Assembly: GCA_021199795.1 (NCBI GenBank) | Contig: JAJQHJ010000024.1 | Coordinates: forward strand, 62,001-126,000 | DNA: 64,000 nucleotides | Reading direction: 5' to 3' | Source: Oscillospiraceae bacterium | GTDB lineage: Bacteria > Bacillota > Clostridia > Oscillospirales > Ruminococcaceae | Shown here: piece by piece, positions 34,936-41,491 of the stretch | How positions within the stretch are numbered: position 1 is the first letter of the stretch | Layout of the letters: each line of letters opens with the position of its first letter | Notes under the pieces: model-generated | What the model was told of the DNA's origin: nothing | Databases searched by the model: none | What the model saw: only the letters and a program-made list of their open reading frames with translations | Made by a program: the position numbers and the translations under genes

Positions 34936-34974
34936 ATTGTAACCCTTGAATTTACACCCGACTCGTGCTATAAT
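34936..34974 (+). promoter_or_regulatory. promoter and operator of the Rrf2 gene
   Basis: TTGAAT (34946-34951) and TATAAT (34969-34974) are 17 bp apart. The -35 box lies inside ATTGTAA-N9-TTACACC (34936-34958), the same inverted repeat found at the two promoters downstream, so autoregulation is likely. Confidence 0.75.
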
Positions 34975-35005
34975 ATTCTCATCAAACTTAGGGAGCACCT
35001 GTAAA

Positions 35006-35452
35006 ATGCAGATTTCAAGCAGATTCACAATAGCTATCCATATTTTCGCCTGCATCGAGACGTTCAAGGACCAGTACAAAATCACGAGCGAGTTCCTGGC
35101 GAGCAGCATCAACGTCAACCCGGTCATAATCCGCCGTATTTTGCAGCAGTTAAAGGCTGCCGGGCTTATTACAGTTGCCCGTGGCAGCGGTGGAGCGTCG
35201 ATTGCGAAGCCGCTTGAGGAGATTACTTTCCTTGACGTCTACAATGCTGTTGAGTGTGTCGAGAGCGGCGAGCTCTTCCATTTCCACGAGAACCCCAACC
35301 AGGCTTGCCCCGTCGGCAGGAATATTCACGCTGCCCTTGACAGCAAGCTCATGACCATCCAGCAGGCAATGGAGGACAAAATGCGTGAGATAACCGTCGC
35401 AGATGTCGTAAATGACACCAAAATTTGCATAGAAAAAGAGTCCGAAAGGTGA
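35006..35452 (+). CDS. Rrf2 family transcriptional regulator (YwnA-like)
   Basis: The 148 residues have the Rrf2 winged helix (MQISSRFTIAIHIFACIETF, ITSEFLASSINVNPVIIRRILQQLKAAGLI) and the wing ARGSGGASIAKPLEEI. Only one Cys (NQACPVG) lies in the region where Fe-S types such as IscR have three, so a classic Fe-S site is unlikely. Bacillus pairs a similar regulator, YwnA, with the NAD(P)-binding YwnB, matched here by the gene at 36.3 kb. ATG 35006 follows TAGGGAG. The last codons lie in a 16-bp direct repeat that also flanks the far side of the next gene. Confidence 0.9.
   Translation: MQISSRFTIAIHIFACIETFKDQYKITSEFLASSINVNPVIIRRILQQLKAAGLITVARGSGGASIAKPLEEITFLDVYNAVECVESGELFHFHENPNQACPVGRNIHAALDSKLMTIQQAMEDKMREITVADVVNDTKICIEKESER
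35433..35448 (+). repeat. 16-bp direct repeat, left copy
   Basis: AAAAAGAGTCCGAAAG at the end of the Rrf2 gene, repeated exactly at 36109-36124 on the other side of the AT-rich gene. Confidence 0.9.
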
Positions 35453-36185: not shown

Positions 36186-36250
36186 GTTGTAACTCTTGAC
36201 ATTACAACTGAGATGTGATATACTCATGCTGTAATCGAAAAGGTTACAAC
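36186..36250 (+). promoter_or_regulatory. promoter with two Rrf2-type operators (NAD(P)-binding gene)
   Basis: TTGACA (36196-36201) and TATACT (36219-36224) are 17 bp apart. Operator A, GTTGTAA-N9-TTACAAC (36186-36208), overlaps the -35; operator B, GCTGTAA-N9-TTACAAC (36228-36250), lies after the -10. Their centres are 42 bp apart. Confidence 0.85.
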
Positions 36251-36279
36251 AATACTTATTTTTTCGGAGGTAATCAATT

Positions 36280-36909
36280 ATGAAAATCGCAGTAGTATGT
36301 GCAAATGGAAAAGCAGGCAAGCTCATCACTAACGAGGCAGTAGCAAGAGGACTCGATGTAACAGCAGTAGTTCGCGGCGAGAACAAGACCGACGCCAAGA
36401 ATGTTCTCAACAAGGATCTTTTCGACCTTAAAGCTGAAAACCTCAAGGGCTACGACGTAGTTGTTGATGCCTTCGGAGCATGGACTGAGGACACTCTTCC
36501 CATGCACAGTACTTCTCTGAAGGTTCTCTGTGACGCTCTCAGCGGAACTGACACAAGACTCTTGGTAGTTGGCGGCGCAGGAAGCCTCTATGTTAATCCT
36601 GAGCACACTGTATGTGTCTCTGACGGACCCGATTTCCCTGACGTCTTCAAGCCTCTGGCAGCTGCAATGGCAAAGGCTCTTTCTGAGCTTCGCGAGCGCG
36701 GTGATGTCAAGTGGACATATGTAAGCCCTGCTGGTGACTTCCAGGCAGATGGTGAAAAGTCCGGCAAGTATATCTTAGGTGGCGAGGAACTCACCCTCAA
36801 TTCAAAGGGCGAAAGCATCATCAGCTATGCCGACTACGCTATCGCCATGGTCGACGAGATTGTTTCCGGCAATCATGTTCAGCAGAGAATCTCAGTCGTA
36901 AGAGAGTAA
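36280..36909 (+). CDS. NAD(P)-binding oxidoreductase-like protein (YwnB-like)
   Basis: The 209 residues form a Rossmann fold of the NmrA/atypical short-chain dehydrogenase type with the nucleotide loop ANGKAGK at the N-terminus and conserved VVDAFGAW and YVSPAGDF. No Tyr-x3-Lys catalytic pair is evident, so it may sense the NAD(P) state or reduce an unknown substrate. GGAGG precedes ATG 36280. It is transcribed alone from a promoter with two Rrf2-type operators. Confidence 0.88.
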   Translation: MKIAVVCANGKAGKLITNEAVARGLDVTAVVRGENKTDAKNVLNKDLFDLKAENLKGYDVVVDAFGAWTEDTLPMHSTSLKVLCDALSGTDTRLLVVGGAGSLYVNPEHTVCVSDGPDFPDVFKPLAAAMAKALSELRERGDVKWTYVSPAGDFQADGEKSGKYILGGEELTLNSKGESIISYADYAIAMVDEIVSGNHVQQRISVVRE

Positions 36910-36980: not shown

Positions 36981-37045
36981 GTTGTAACTATTGACATTAC
37001 GTCCGAGATATGCTATACTACTGTTGTAATCTGAATGGTTACAAC
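36981..37045 (+). promoter_or_regulatory. promoter with two Rrf2-type operators (peptide operon)
   Basis: TTGACA (36991-36996) and TATACT (37014-37019), 17 bp apart. Operator A is GTTGTAA-N9-TTACGTC (36981-37003), operator B GTTGTAA-N9-TTACAAC (37023-37045), again 42 bp centre to centre. The core promoter matches the one at 36186-36250 closely. Confidence 0.85.
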
Positions 37046-37072: not shown

Positions 37073-37363
37073 ATGGCACTTTCTAATCTGGTTGGATGGA
37101 CTGATGAGACTTCTGTTGCCTCTGCATGTGGTACTGCTTGCGGAGCGGCTGACAAGGCTGAAGAGAAGCCCGCCGCCTGTGACTCTGCCTGTGGAGCGGC
37201 TGATAAGCCGGAAGAAAAGCCCGCAGCATGTGGCTCTGCCTGTGGTGCGGCGGATAAGCCTGCTGAGGCACCCGCAGCTTGCGGTTCTGCCTGTGGAGCA
37301 GCTGACAAGCCGGAAGAGAAGCCCACCACTTGCGGAGCTGCTTGCGGAGCTGGCGACAAGTAA
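37073..37363 (+). CDS. ACGX-repeat peptide, putative radical SAM substrate
   Basis: The 96-residue peptide has an 18-residue leader (MALSNLVGWTDETSVASA) and then four 17-residue repeats of the form CGxACGAADKPEEKPAA plus a last CGAACGAGDK. Each unit has two Cys as CxxxC, ten in all, and most read Ala-Cys-Gly-X. I recall NCBI families named ACGX-repeat peptide and radical SAM/SPASM domain protein, ACGX system; this pair fits them, though the product is not characterised to my knowledge. GGAGG (37058-37062) precedes ATG 37073. The SPASM enzyme follows 108 bp later. A modified peptide or metal-binding role is inferred. Confidence 0.85.
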   Translation: MALSNLVGWTDETSVASACGTACGAADKAEEKPAACDSACGAADKPEEKPAACGSACGAADKPAEAPAACGSACGAADKPEEKPTTCGAACGAGDK

Positions 37364-37471
37364 TTCTGTCCGCAACATTTTGCCTGATGAGCCGGTATCG
37401 GTTCATCGGGCATCTGCGAAATAGTGTCCGTTTATCGGATTTACACATAACTTCAGAGGAGACCGTGCAAT

Positions 37472-38518
37472 ATGAAACAATACTTTTCTTTTCAATGGCA
37501 CATCACAGACGAGTGCGACCAGCGGTGTAAGCACTGCTACATCTTTTCCGAAAACGTCTGTAAAGAACTGGATTCAATGAACTGGTCGGAGATACTAAAG
37601 ACGTTTAAGAACTGTCTCGATTTCTGCGAAACGTATCACCGCCTGCCGTATTTCTATATCACCGGCGGCGACCCCATTCTGCATCCCGACTTCTGGAAGC
37701 TCCTCGGACTGATGAAAGAGCATAACATTCCCTTTACGATCTTAGGCAATCCTTTTCATCTTAATGATGATGTGTGTCGCCGGATGAAAGAATATGGCTG
37801 TCAGAAGTATCAGCTCTCTCTTGACGGAATGAGAGAAACCCACGACTGGTTCCGCAAGCCTGGCTCTTTCGACATTACGCTCGAAAAGATTGGCTGCATC
37901 AACCGCGCAGGCATCCGCAGCGTTATCATGACCACTGTCTCCGGAACGAATATTGATGAAGTCCCCGATATCATTGACGCCGTGGTTGCGGCTGGGGCAA
38001 ACGTATTTGCTTTTGCCCGTTACTGCCCGACTTCTGAGGAAAAGGACACCGGCATCGAACCGCTCCGTTATCGGAAACTGCTGGCGGACTGCGATAAGAA
38101 ATTCAAGGAGTATGAAGCCGCCGGATGCCAGACCTATTTCAACAAAAAAGACCACCTCTGGACTCTTTATGAATACGAAATCGGTGAATTCAAAATCCCT
38201 GAAAATGCGAAAAAGGGAATGATTTATGGAGGCTGCAACTGCGGCAACTGTCATCTGACTATCCTGCCGACAGGAGATGTTTATGCCTGCCGCCGTGTGC
38301 AGAACAGCAAGGTCGGAAACGTTTTCGAAAACCGTCTTGCCGATTTGTGGGTCACGAAGCTGGAGGACTACCGGGATTACACGAAGTTTGAGAAGTGCTC
38401 CAAATGTGAGCTGCTGGCATACTGCCGAGGCTGTCCCGCCGTGGCAAGCGGCAAGGATGGGAACTTCTATGCCGCCGACCCGCAGTGCTGGCGCGAGATA
38501 CCGGAAAGCGAGGATTGA
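37472..38518 (+). CDS. radical SAM/SPASM enzyme, ACGX-type peptide maturase
   Basis: The 348 residues open with the radical SAM cluster motif CxxxCxxC (C15, C19, C22: CDQRCKHCY), the TIM-barrel segments YFYITGGDPILHPDF and LSLDGMRETHDWFRKPG, and a C-terminal SPASM region at about 253-345 with many Cys (CNCGNCHL, CSKCELLAYCRGCP, DPQC) for auxiliary 4Fe-4S clusters. Such enzymes modify ribosomal peptides, for example by thioether or C-C links. The gene directly upstream encodes the Cys-repeat peptide. It ends 3 bp before the nitroreductase gene, so they are cotranslated. Confidence 0.92.
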   Translation: MKQYFSFQWHITDECDQRCKHCYIFSENVCKELDSMNWSEILKTFKNCLDFCETYHRLPYFYITGGDPILHPDFWKLLGLMKEHNIPFTILGNPFHLNDDVCRRMKEYGCQKYQLSLDGMRETHDWFRKPGSFDITLEKIGCINRAGIRSVIMTTVSGTNIDEVPDIIDAVVAAGANVFAFARYCPTSEEKDTGIEPLRYRKLLADCDKKFKEYEAAGCQTYFNKKDHLWTLYEYEIGEFKIPENAKKGMIYGGCNCGNCHLTILPTGDVYACRRVQNSKVGNVFENRLADLWVTKLEDYRDYTKFEKCSKCELLAYCRGCPAVASGKDGNFYAADPQCWREIPESED

Positions 38519-38521
38519 GCA

Positions 38522-39109
38522 ATGAGTGAACTGATGGAAACAATTATACAGCGCCGTTCAATACGTCGCTTCGATACAAGGCAGATAGAAGAATCGGAGT
38601 TGCAGGAAATCTTGCGGGCTGGCTTGTATGCTCCGAGTGCAGGAGGAGGGCAGCGGGTGATTCTTGCCGTCTGTCAGGATAAAGAGGTTAATGAACGGCT
38701 TGGCAAGATCAAGCGGGCAAACCAAAATCCCCGGATGGCGACTGCAACAAGCTATGTCTCAAGAGAACAGCCCAGTATTGCGGACGATCCGAATATAAAG
38801 AACGCTTTTTACGACGCCCCGACGGTTATTACAATGTTTGCACCGAAAAACTTCCTCTTTTCAGCTGAGGATTGTGCGTGTGCCGCCGAAAACATGATGC
38901 TTGTGGCTGATTCCTTGGGAATTGGTTCCTGCTATCTGGGACAGGGTTGGGTGGCGTTCAGCGACCCATACGGGCAGGAAATTCTGAAAAAATGGAATAT
39001 CCGCACTGATTACTACGCTGTAATGCAGCTTCTTCTTGGCTATCCCCGTGAGGGTGACCGTCATCCTACAGCGAAGCCGAGAAAACCTGACCGTATACTG
39101 AGATTTTAG
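38522..39109 (+). CDS. nitroreductase family flavoprotein
   Basis: The 195 residues have the FMN-binding start IIQRRSIRRF, LYAPSAGGGQ, and the C-terminal LLGYPREGDRHPTAKPRK of the family. Members reduce nitro groups or quinones, or act as dehydrogenases on azoline rings in peptide pathways. Here its place directly behind the SPASM enzyme suggests it serves peptide maturation or electron delivery; this is inference from context. Confidence 0.92.
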   Translation: MSELMETIIQRRSIRRFDTRQIEESELQEILRAGLYAPSAGGGQRVILAVCQDKEVNERLGKIKRANQNPRMATATSYVSREQPSIADDPNIKNAFYDAPTVITMFAPKNFLFSAEDCACAAENMMLVADSLGIGSCYLGQGWVAFSDPYGQEILKKWNIRTDYYAVMQLLLGYPREGDRHPTAKPRKPDRILRF

Positions 39110-39124
39110 TTGGGAGGATTACTT

Positions 39125-39739
39125 ATGGACGCACAGACCTGTCTTAAGAAACTGCAATATGTAGGAGTGCTCGAATTTGCGACTGTGGATTCCGATGGAA
39201 ACCCGCAGATAAGAAATATCAGTGCCATTCACTATGAGCCCGACGGGATGTACTTTTTCACAGCAAGAGGGAAAAACTTCTGCCGTGAGCTGCTGTCTGA
39301 TGGTCGGGTACAGATTCTCGGCTACACCCGATATAAGGAAATGATCCGACTTTCTGCAAAGGCGACTCCTGTTTCCGAGGAAGAGCAGCAGAAGTGGACA
39401 GACACCATCTTCCAGGAACAGCCATATCTTAGCAATGTCTATCCCGGCGACACAAGAAAAATCGGCATTGTTTTTGAAATACATGATGCCGAAATCGAAT
39501 ACTTCAATCTCGGCGTCAATCCGATTTTCAGGGAGAGCTATGTGATTGGAAATGGCAAGGCTAATCCAAAAGGTTATTTCATAACTGATGCCTGTATCGG
39601 CTGCGGAAAATGCGTCAAGATATGTCCGCAAAGGGCGATCGAATTTGGCAAGCCGAGTGTAATCCATCAGGAACATTGTCTTCACTGTGGCAATTGCTTT
39701 GAAAATTGCCCGGTAAAGGCTATCGTAAGAAGAGGCTGA
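39125..39739 (+). CDS. flavin-binding (PNPOx-like) and 2[4Fe-4S] ferredoxin fusion
   Basis: The 204 residues join a split-barrel flavin domain of the pyridoxamine-phosphate-oxidase type (about 1-145: LEFATVDSDGNPQIRNISAI, MYFFTARGKNF) to a two-cluster ferredoxin (CIGCGKCVKICPQ and CLHCGNCFENCPV). It could pass electrons to the radical SAM enzyme. ATG 39125 has GGGAGGA ahead; the codons before it are within the ribosome site. Confidence 0.9.
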   Translation: MDAQTCLKKLQYVGVLEFATVDSDGNPQIRNISAIHYEPDGMYFFTARGKNFCRELLSDGRVQILGYTRYKEMIRLSAKATPVSEEEQQKWTDTIFQEQPYLSNVYPGDTRKIGIVFEIHDAEIEYFNLGVNPIFRESYVIGNGKANPKGYFITDACIGCGKCVKICPQRAIEFGKPSVIHQEHCLHCGNCFENCPVKAIVRRG

Positions 39740-39741
39740 AA

Positions 39742-40521
39742 ATGACCCAATCCGACCGCAGACTATACCTAATAAAAGAGCTTTTAGCCGAGGAGCCGCA
39801 GTACCAGGGCTACGAAATTCCTGAGGACGAATACTCCCAGAAGCGACTTTTACGGGCACTTTTCAATGTCCGGCTCCCGAAGCCGATTAGTGATGAGTTC
39901 CTGAAGATTCAGGATGAGTATCTCCAGGAGGAAACCTATAGAAAGGGAATTACAGATATAGCCGACCTGACGCCTGTTCAGGACGACATCTACCTCTGGC
40001 AGGGCGACATCACGACGCTTAAGTGCGGAGCTATTGTCAATGCGGCGAATTCCAGGCTTCTTGGATGCTTCGGACCAAACCACGAGTGCATCGACAACGC
40101 CATCCACACCTATTCCGGCATTCAGCTGAGACTTAAGTGCAACGAAATCATGCAGAAGCAGGGTCACGAGGAGGAGACCGGCAGAGCCAAGATAACTTCT
40201 GCATACAACCTCCCGAGCCAATATGTCATCCACACAGTTGGACCGATTGTTGGCTGGCGGCTCACGGAGAGGGACAAGAAGCTTCTCGCCCAAAGCTATC
40301 GCTCCTGCCTGGAATTGGCGGACAAAAATAGCGTTGGGAGCATCGCGTTCTGCTGCATTTCCACCGGCGAATTCCATTTCCCGAACGACAAGGCGGCGGA
40401 AATCGCGCTCAGAGCAGTGCTCGGTTATAAGAAAGAGACCCACAGTGAAATCAAGGTGATATTCAATGTATTTAAAGATGCCGACCTCGAAATTTATGAG
40501 AAGCTCCTCGGAACAGATTGA
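39742..40521 (+). CDS. macrodomain ADP-ribosylglycohydrolase (zinc type)
   Basis: The 259 residues have a helical N-terminal part and then a macrodomain from about 90 (LWQGDITTLKCGAIVNAANS, LLGCFGPNHECIDNAIH, HTVGPIVG, SIAFCCISTGEFHFP). The Cys/His in GC-x4-H-x-C match the zinc-dependent macrodomains that pair with SirTM sirtuins and remove ADP-ribose from proteins. It starts 2 bp after the ferredoxin stop and overlaps the sirtuin gene by 56 bp. Confidence 0.92.
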   Translation: MTQSDRRLYLIKELLAEEPQYQGYEIPEDEYSQKRLLRALFNVRLPKPISDEFLKIQDEYLQEETYRKGITDIADLTPVQDDIYLWQGDITTLKCGAIVNAANSRLLGCFGPNHECIDNAIHTYSGIQLRLKCNEIMQKQGHEEETGRAKITSAYNLPSQYVIHTVGPIVGWRLTERDKKLLAQSYRSCLELADKNSVGSIAFCCISTGEFHFPNDKAAEIALRAVLGYKKETHSEIKVIFNVFKDADLEIYEKLLGTD

Positions 40522-41335
40522 GAGTCTGAAAGAGGCACTTGACTCTGCCGATGCTGTCGTAATTGGTGCCGGAGCGGGGCTTTCGACCTCCGCAGGATTT
40601 ACCTATTCCGGCAAGAGATTTGAAGAAAACTTCTCAGATTTCGAGAAAAAATATAGCTTTCACGACATGTACTCGGGCGGCTTCTACCAATATGAAACCT
40701 TAGAAGAATTTTGGGCATTCTGGAGCAGAAATATCTGGCTGAACCGCTACACAGACGCCCCGAAGCCGGTCTACCAGGATCTGTTCGAGCTTGTCAAGGA
40801 CAAGGATTATTTCGTCCTCACGACCAATGTTGACCACTGCTTCCAGAAAGCAGGCTTCGACAAAAAGCGGCTTTTCTATACACAGGGCGACTACGGTCTC
40901 TTCCAGTGCTCTGAGCCCTGCCACCAGAAGACCTACGATAACGAAGAAGTTATTAAAAGGATGATGGAGACTCAGGAAAATATGCGTATTCCGTCTGATC
41001 TCGTCCCGAAATGCCCGATTTGCGGCAAGCCGATGAACACAAATCTTAGGTGTGATGATACTTTTTTCGAGGACGAGGGTTGGCATCAGGCTGCGGAAAG
41101 GTATTCCGAATTCCTCCGGAGGCACGAGGGCTTGACAACGCTCTATTTGGAGCTCGGCGTCGGGTTCAACACCCCCTCCATCATCAAATACCCGTTCTGG
41201 CAGATGACCCTGAAGAATCCTAAGGCGACCTACGCCTGCATAAACTATGGCGACGCCGCCTGCCCGTCTCAGATCGAGAGACAGTCAATCTGCATCGATG
41301 ATGACATCGGCAGGGTTCTGAAAAAGCTCCTGTAA
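40466..41335 (+). CDS. SirTM-type (class M) sirtuin, protein ADP-ribosyltransferase
   Basis: The 289 residues contain the NAD-binding motif GAGAGLSTSAGF, TTNVDHCFQKAGF, and a zinc-like CPICGKP. The segments FSDFEKKYSFHDMYSGGFYQY and EEFWAFWSRNIWLNRY are typical of class M sirtuins, which ADP-ribosylate a GcvH-like carrier in pathogens. ATG 40466 lies 6 nt after AAGGTGA inside the macrodomain gene; a later ATG at 40496 has no ribosome site. No lipoyl carrier or ligase gene is nearby, so the target here is unknown. Confidence 0.9.
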   Translation: MYLKMPTSKFMRSSSEQIESLKEALDSADAVVIGAGAGLSTSAGFTYSGKRFEENFSDFEKKYSFHDMYSGGFYQYETLEEFWAFWSRNIWLNRYTDAPKPVYQDLFELVKDKDYFVLTTNVDHCFQKAGFDKKRLFYTQGDYGLFQCSEPCHQKTYDNEEVIKRMMETQENMRIPSDLVPKCPICGKPMNTNLRCDDTFFEDEGWHQAAERYSEFLRRHEGLTTLYLELGVGFNTPSIIKYPFWQMTLKNPKATYACINYGDAACPSQIERQSICIDDDIGRVLKKLL

Positions 41336-41415: not shown

Positions 41416-41491
41416 GGGGTATTAGCGCAGTTGGGAGCGCGCCACACTGGCAGTGTGGAGGTCACGGGTTCGAATCCCGTATGCTCCACCA
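41416..41491 (+). tRNA. tRNA-Ala(GGC)
   Basis: A full cloverleaf can be folded: acceptor GGGGTAT/ATGCTCC, D stem GCGC/GCGC, anticodon stem CCACA/TGTGG with loop CTGGCAG (anticodon GGC), T stem ACGGG/CCCGT. G3-U70, the alanine identity pair, is present, and CCA is encoded. Confidence 0.96.

Follow-up and report, generated by a model that had tools for sequence, protein, structure and literature searches.

The sirtuin SirTM and its zinc macrodomain partner (Zn-Macro) are known from an extended operon of Lactobacillales and Staphylococcaceae that comprises GcvH-L, Zn-Macro, SirTM, LplA2, OYE and LLM, and the reaction on lipoyl-GcvH-L is known from Streptococcus and Staphylococcus (as described in the available portions of PMC4518038 and PMC11490716). 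According to the 2024 zinc-macrodomain paper, no SirTM target apart from GcvH-L is known so far, and those of other SirTM/Zn-Macro systems are elusive. Two further kinds of system bear on the locus described here (each source being available in excerpt): i) the PapA/PapB ranthipeptide system (freyrasin), with repeated CX3D motifs beside a radical SAM enzyme of the SPASM type (PMC9413430, PMC10470005), in which PapB links Cys to the beta-carbon of Asp within CX3D (PMC9413430); and ii) the redox regulons in which the HxlR/DUF24 regulators HypR, YodB and CatR sense hypochlorite, quinones and diamide, with the Rrf2-type HypR of Staphylococcus aureus and its relative YwnA showing the same kind of response (PMC6943732).

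Here we describe the ACGX locus of an Oscillospiraceae bacterium (assembly GCA_021199795.1), which lies in a 64,000-nucleotide stretch of contig JAJQHJ010000024.1 (positions 62,001 to 126,000, forward strand), hereafter the window. The ACGX entries of NCBIfam name a peptide (TIGR04341, target_ACGX) and an enzyme (TIGR04340, rSAM_ACGX) only; the window encodes both in adjacent genes, each far above its curated cut-off in profile searches, in agreement with the ACGX assignment made in a preliminary description of the locus. To these we add a macrodomain, SirTM, redox regulators and a CX3D rule. On balance we favour the view that the locus is a thiol-stress operon in which a radical-SAM-modified polythiol peptide is joined to a reversible ADP-ribosylation switch, which would add a second type to the extended SirTM operons. 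Gene order, the repeated SirTM association, the regulators and operator-like sites, the signature residues and the GcvH and TIGR00545 negatives were read from sequence; the remaining steps are predictions built on them.

The preliminary description had placed a 96-residue peptide with ten Cys and three enzyme genes at 37073..39739, with gaps of 108 bp (peptide to SPASM enzyme), 3 bp (enzyme to nitroreductase, NTR) and 15 bp (NTR to the fusion protein PNPOx-Fd). These values were exact to the base, and Pfam agrees with its three enzyme identities, finding Radical_SAM and SPASM in the maturase, and PNPOx_N and two 4Fe-4S stretches in PNPOx-Fd. The unit does not end at 39739, however: a macrodomain gene begins 2 bp after PNPOx-Fd and is overlapped by a SirTM gene (start at 40466 or 40478), so that gaps of 2-15 bp or overlaps connect all genes from radical SAM to SirTM. 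Promoter-like and operator-like sites upstream, and a regulator gene, had also escaped notice. The peptide and the radical SAM/SPASM enzyme, together with an NAD(P)H-type reductase, a flavin-ferredoxin protein, a zinc macrodomain and SirTM, look like the products of one redox-stress operon.

The closest solved structures of the two distal proteins are 5a3a (SirTM) and 8rsi (zinc macrodomain), and the macrodomain passed the cut-off of the protein-ADP-ribose hydrolase family NF003163. The SirTM signature residues Asn111, Gln130 (which replaces the sirtuin His, giving QG instead of HG) and Arg185, aligned to 5a3a, were present in 109/109 proteins (open reading frames of 255-340 amino acids only), while Cys109, His114 and Cys116 of the zinc-binding motif within the catalytic loop, aligned with 8rsi, were present in 92/92 macrodomains (230-300 amino acids only). 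With these residues and its linkage to a zinc macrodomain, the window protein belongs to the class M sirtuins, and the pair is predicted to act as writer and eraser of protein ADP-ribosylation.

Recurrence of this layout was followed in two sets of genomes: i) the best 80 of 287 enzyme relatives (78-95% identity, from named genomes), a set biased to close ones; and ii) the 12 ACGX genomes within a 291-genome sample of the class, for which longer stretches were fetched. Loci L081-L092 gave way to longer stretches or to the window itself, and L093-L110 were left out as distant; of the resulting 93 loci, the 66 with at least 5 kb downstream were used for downstream counts. SirTM lay downstream in 46/66 ACGX loci, within 5 kb in 45 and at 7.9 kb in L076 (the matches in L021, L024 and L059 were short, at 48-117 amino acids); a macrodomain lay downstream in 33/66. 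SirTM was present in 52 genomes of the 291-genome sample (E 1e-50 or better), and all 12 genomes with the ACGX enzyme carried it 2.4-4.7 kb downstream (Fisher p 3e-10 at the genome level; 0.0096 within the four ACGX-holding families, 12/12 versus 11/19, where five genomes without a radical SAM match could not be placed). A quick tree of 109 SirTM proteins required 21 parsimony changes of the ACGX-locus label, at least 10 of them on well-supported branches; thus the adjacency appears to have been gained or lost repeatedly and not to descend as one inherited block.

Occurrence of the peptide mostly without the SPASM gene, which the preliminary description had named as telling against its proposal, was not seen: the peptide passed the cut-off in 14/291 genomes and 12 of these hold the enzyme. 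The two peptide-only cases are G197, which looks like a deletion remnant, and G215, where the sequence ends just after the peptide. The remnant (locus L153) holds an ACGX-like fragment, an NTR fragment, a full-length PNPOx-Fd gene, and macrodomain and SirTM matches; a radical SAM gene was not found there, and the SirTM part is retained. One ACGX locus (L069) comes from a short contig assigned to Candidatus Brocadia, possibly through a mistake in binning, since most other records are titled with Clostridia groups.

The peptide gene is a tandem repeat with a 51-base unit in 3.9-4.5 copies (best score 234, Tandem Repeats Finder); the preliminary description had counted four 17-residue repeats. 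Its reading frame is not a chance one, since the motif and nearly the whole leader are kept in 79 distinct peptides (87 loci yielded a peptide, 81 with a start) and all 12 enzyme-bearing genomes have a peptide over the cut-off. Among 541 Cys counted, Asp stood at +4 for 283 and Cys at +4 for 248, with 10 remaining; the core Asp (after the first Cys) was at Cys+4 in 283/296 cases (CX3D), and even the divergent peptide of L092, with altered linkers, retained CX3D. Of 84 radical SAM enzymes, all 84 retained the CX3CX2C motif and the main Cys residues of SPASM. Judged by the motif, the modification would most likely link Cys to Asp by a thioether within CX3D. In having several CX3D motifs encoded next to a radical SAM enzyme of the SPASM type, the system resembles PapA/PapB as described in the excerpts cited above; the ACGX system differs in an enzyme outside the PapB family, in extra CX3C Cys before many CX3D, and in its ADP-ribosylation genes and redox-type regulators. 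The hairpin between the peptide and enzyme genes had z < -2 against mononucleotide shuffles in 63/76 regions (80 measured), and strong intergenic hairpins recur in relatives with differing sequences, which suggests that the peptide is made in excess over the enzyme. A product of the ACGX system, uncharacterised according to the preliminary description, was not described in the literature searched by the ACGX name (judged by title among the matches listed) and both accessions.

A relative of the ACGX enzyme (38-40% identical, radical SAM/SPASM) lies at L195 and L196 (genomes G180 and G112) directly before a cassette that we take to be Agr-like, with an AgrB-like protein, an AgrD-like peptide of 54-55 amino acids and a sensor kinase on the opposite strand. 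A radical-SAM-modified autoinducing peptide may possibly be encoded there. As a clue to ACGX chemistry these distant enzymes were rejected, their neighbours being the Agr-like cassette and no ACGX peptide.

The lipoyl substrate of the known systems appears to be missing from the ACGX genomes. Lipoate ligase TIGR00545 was matched in 0/12 (the search did not extend to lipoyl synthase or further ligase families) and full-length GcvH in 0/12; GCV_H matches occurred in 4/12 as fragments of 44-65 positions (20.8-29.1 bits), which may be biotinyl-type carriers. Therefore the lipoyl-GcvH-L reaction seems unavailable in those 12 genomes, SirTM action on lipoyl-GcvH-L was rejected for them, and the GcvH-L and LplA2 pairing that marks the extended SirTM operon is not found. 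With that operon, as far as the accessible portions of its descriptions go, the ACGX operon shares the Zn-Macro/SirTM pair, a small protein that is a candidate sulfur carrier, flavin oxidoreductases and an oxidative-stress setting; it differs in having a Cys peptide and a radical SAM enzyme in the place of GcvH-L, and NTR or a zinc-dehydrogenase-type reductase (MDR) plus PNPOx-Fd rather than OYE and LLM. In streptococci and staphylococci, its counterpart would be the lipoyl-GcvH-L operon.

Two GTTGTAA-N9-TTAC copies flank a promoter-like site before the peptide gene (promoter-like sites of such quality numbered 11 in the region versus 5.0 expected), and two more precede an NmrA-like gene with equal 42-bp spacing. 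This Rrf2-type pattern had a mean of 0 in 100 shuffles, and the whole window genome has the four sites at the locus plus one less regular site. The neighbouring Rrf2 gene (true start possibly downstream of the TTG) is the likely regulator of these putative operators; its best NCBIfam match is HypR NF041852, at 57.3 bits under the cut-off of 180. The NmrA-like gene (36186-36909 with its upstream sites) has a paired operator-like and promoter layout matching that of the ACGX operon; the Rrf2 gene could thus govern a local regulon with two promoters.

In the 79 loci for which 1.5 kb or more of upstream sequence was available, a divergent HxlR gene was present in 66, Rrf2 in 6 and neither in 9, some loci having both. 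An exact GTGCGTACTT box preceded the ACGX peptide at 62/67 HxlR-linked, 1/5 Rrf2-linked and 6/9 unassigned loci; it also occurred upstream of SirTM-module genes, at most 450 bp away, at 7/40 loci outside ACGX operons (one being the remnant L153) and at 5/19 loci with SirTM separate from ACGX, while copies elsewhere numbered three in each of these two sets (530 kb and 240 kb). As in the HypR, YodB and CatR regulons (available part of PMC6943732), an Rrf2 or HxlR/DUF24 regulator stands by nitro-, quinone- or disulfide-type reductases; the ACGX regulator, in contrast, precedes a peptide-modification and ADP-ribosylation operon, and the window Rrf2 protein falls short of the HypR family.

We propose the following sequence of events. 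Thiol or electrophile stress would act via the Rrf2 (elsewhere HxlR) regulator and open the operon; the peptide would be produced in excess, and the radical SAM enzyme, fed with electrons by PNPOx-Fd, would modify its CX3CX3D units. The modified peptide would stay inside the cell as a polythiol sink for redox equivalents or electrophiles, while NTR or an alternative reductase would remove electrophiles. SirTM and Zn-Macro would switch the pathway through reversible ADP-ribosylation, with the acidic residues of the peptide as the leading candidate site. That the peptide itself is the ADP-ribosylated SirTM target is a tentative proposal which we rate as rather unlikely, although it is favoured over PNPOx-Fd because of the GcvH-L analogy and the near-invariant Asp. 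Equally doubtful is its fuller form, in which the peptide, encoded by its own gene and built by the radical SAM enzyme, would replace lipoyl-GcvH-L as a redox carrier based on sulfur: SirTM would ADP-ribosylate its modified CX3CX3D units on the near-invariant Asp or a Glu close by, and the zinc macrodomain would release them again.

Several lines of evidence weigh against the thiol-switch reading: i) SirTM is not downstream in 20/66 ACGX loci, and no SirTM match was found in two of those 20 genomes (their completeness is not given); ii) a downstream macrodomain is missing at 13/46 loci with SirTM downstream (upstream copy in 2, none in the locus for 11); iii) shuffled labels need 36.2 changes on the SirTM tree, i.e., the ACGX label is clustered, which implies that much of the adjacency is inherited; iv) membership of the enzyme in the PapB family was rejected (NF047865, 61.7 bits against a cut-off of 340), and a leader-binding domain was not found in it by Pfam search; v) the GCV_H fragments pass the curated cut-off of 22.2 in 3/12 ACGX genomes, and among 39 ACGX-free SirTM genomes full-length GcvH (>100 bits) occurs in 3, with 14 passing the GCV_H cut-off in all and the rest of these being short fragments; vi) the exact HxlR box is missing near 33/40 and 14/19 SirTM loci outside ACGX; and vii) SirTM occurs in 40/279 genomes without the ACGX enzyme (a count that includes G197 with its remnant locus and G207, where only ~2 kb of contig precedes SirTM), which implies other targets there. 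That SirTM persists where ACGX is lacking speaks most strongly against the peptide as its target. The 13 loci without a downstream macrodomain are L021, L022, L025, L035, L036, L038, L045, L046, L049, L051, L055, L059 and L064, the upstream copies being in L051 and L064.

The strongest alternative, to which we give a real chance somewhat short of even, is that the ACGX and SirTM modules each belong to the thiol-stress response and share a transcript because one regulator controls them, the SirTM target being another protein such as PNPOx-Fd or one encoded elsewhere. It is favoured by the SirTM loci outside ACGX (40 loci, from 39 genomes plus the second SirTM locus of ACGX genome G104; G048 was not included), where, at 80 or more aligned amino acids, a macrodomain was found at 39, HxlR at 18, PNPOx-Fd at 14, an NmrA-like protein at 7 and Rrf2 at 5; HxlR, PNPOx-Fd, NmrA-like or Rrf2 proteins, singly or together, are encoded near 25/40. 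Thus the SirTM module stands without ACGX. No other Cys-rich peptide recurred in place of ACGX when these 40 loci were inspected by eye. Moreover, in 18 of the 20 genomes without SirTM downstream of ACGX it lies elsewhere (E 1e-20 or better), and 5/19 such separate loci carry the exact GTGCGTACTT box, as co-regulation would have it. On the other hand, mere co-regulation sits less well with the changes of adjacency on supported branches, and with an ACGX locus occurring without any SirTM match in the genome in only 2/66 cases.

An improbable alternative is a metal-binding or metal-delivery polythiol, in which the CX3CX3D units would be ligand sets and redox stress would act via metal release from thiols. 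The ten Cys in regular units would suit this role, as would the second-best NCBIfam family of the enzyme, SbtM (155.8 bits, cut-off 350); against it, visual inspection of the 45 largest gene clusters (most without a family search) revealed no recurring metal transporter or metal regulator, and the regulators are of the HxlR or Rrf2 type.

We consider it very improbable that the genes form a self-contained maturation unit for a ribosomally synthesized and post-translationally modified peptide (RiPP), with NTR as peptide oxidase and a product unrelated to the downstream genes. Peptide and enzyme do co-occur, and on a tree of 73 PNPOx-Fd proteins the ACGX-locus label needed 4 changes versus 15.6 in shuffles, so that PNPOx-Fd from ACGX loci appears to be nearly its own subfamily, which fits a dedicated redox partner; PNPOx-Fd was present in 47/66 loci (three of the 47 matches being below 40% identity). 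Yet NTR (49/66 loci) is swapped for a zinc-dehydrogenase-type reductase in 16/66, the two never occurring together, and the macrodomain and SirTM genes continue the run across the 2-bp gap and the overlap. Relatives of PNPOx-Fd also precede SirTM at loci without ACGX. The full maturation unit with a possible oxidase, as suggested in the preliminary description, is therefore unsupported.

A secreted antimicrobial was rejected (no protease recognised by eye in the 45 largest clusters of the 93 loci, two clusters having been family-searched; transporter-like clusters on the operon strand in at most 4 loci each; MATE-like proteins in 9 loci, 7/9 on the opposite strand), as was a connection to phages (neither the peptide nor the macrodomain matched a PHROG family, and the radical SAM enzyme and SirTM matched general radical SAM and Sir2 families only).

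The features of the locus are collected in Table 1. A tRNA-Ala gene follows the SirTM gene at 41416-41491 of the window.

Table 1. Features of the ACGX locus, in window positions
Feature	Position	Strand	Evidence
ACGX-repeat precursor peptide, 96 amino acids, 10 Cys, five CX3CX3D units	37073..37363	+	TIGR04341 86.4 bits (cut-off 28)
RNA hairpin, 14-bp, between peptide and enzyme genes	37381..37412	+	folding versus shuffles
Radical SAM/SPASM maturase, ACGX system	37472..38518	+	TIGR04340 596.4 bits (cut-off 400)
Nitroreductase-family flavoprotein (NTR)	38522..39109	+	PF00881 Nitroreductase 89 bits
PNPOx-like flavin domain fused to 2[4Fe-4S] ferredoxin (PNPOx-Fd)	39125..39739	+	PF01243 PNPOx_N 38 bits + Fer4
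Zinc macrodomain, predicted (ADP-ribosyl)hydrolase	39742..40521	+	NF003163 368.6 bits (cut-off 272); PDB 8rsi E 1.6e-80
Class M sirtuin SirTM, predicted protein ADP-ribosyltransferase	40466..41335	+	PDB 5a3a E 1.1e-74
Rrf2-family regulator, probable redox regulator of operon	34946..35452	+	Pfam Rrf2 114 bits
NmrA-like oxidoreductase, NAD(P)-binding, putatively in the same regulon	36280..36909	+	Pfam NAD_binding_10 53.6 bits
Putative Rrf2-type operator 1, NmrA-like gene	36186..36208	.	GTTGTAA-N9-TTACAAC; shuffles
Putative Rrf2-type operator 2, NmrA-like gene, 42 bp from operator 1	36228..36250	.	pattern match
Putative Rrf2-type operator 1, ACGX operon, overlaps -35 box	36981..37003	.	pattern match
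Promoter-like site TTGACA-17-TATACT, TG before -10 box	36991..37019	+	11/12 consensus matches
Putative Rrf2-type operator 2, ACGX operon, 42 bp from operator 1	37023..37045	.	9-pair inverted repeat

In the literature searched (titles and term counts among the listed matches, with supplementary files and most subscription papers outside its scope), no paper joins SirTM or the macrodomain to radical SAM or RiPP genes, and the word 'radical' is absent from the two SirTM papers (PMC4518038, PMC11490716). The operon gives a concrete candidate for a SirTM/Zn-Macro target in gut Clostridia, in genomes without a lipoate ligase match or full-length GcvH. It also places the ACGX system in a likely context, that of thiol stress, and leads to predictions of its chemistry (at CX3D) and of its inducers. 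If the proposal for the peptide is true, this would be the first SirTM target other than GcvH-L, and a peptide of the ACGX kind would be governed by reversible ADP-ribosylation.

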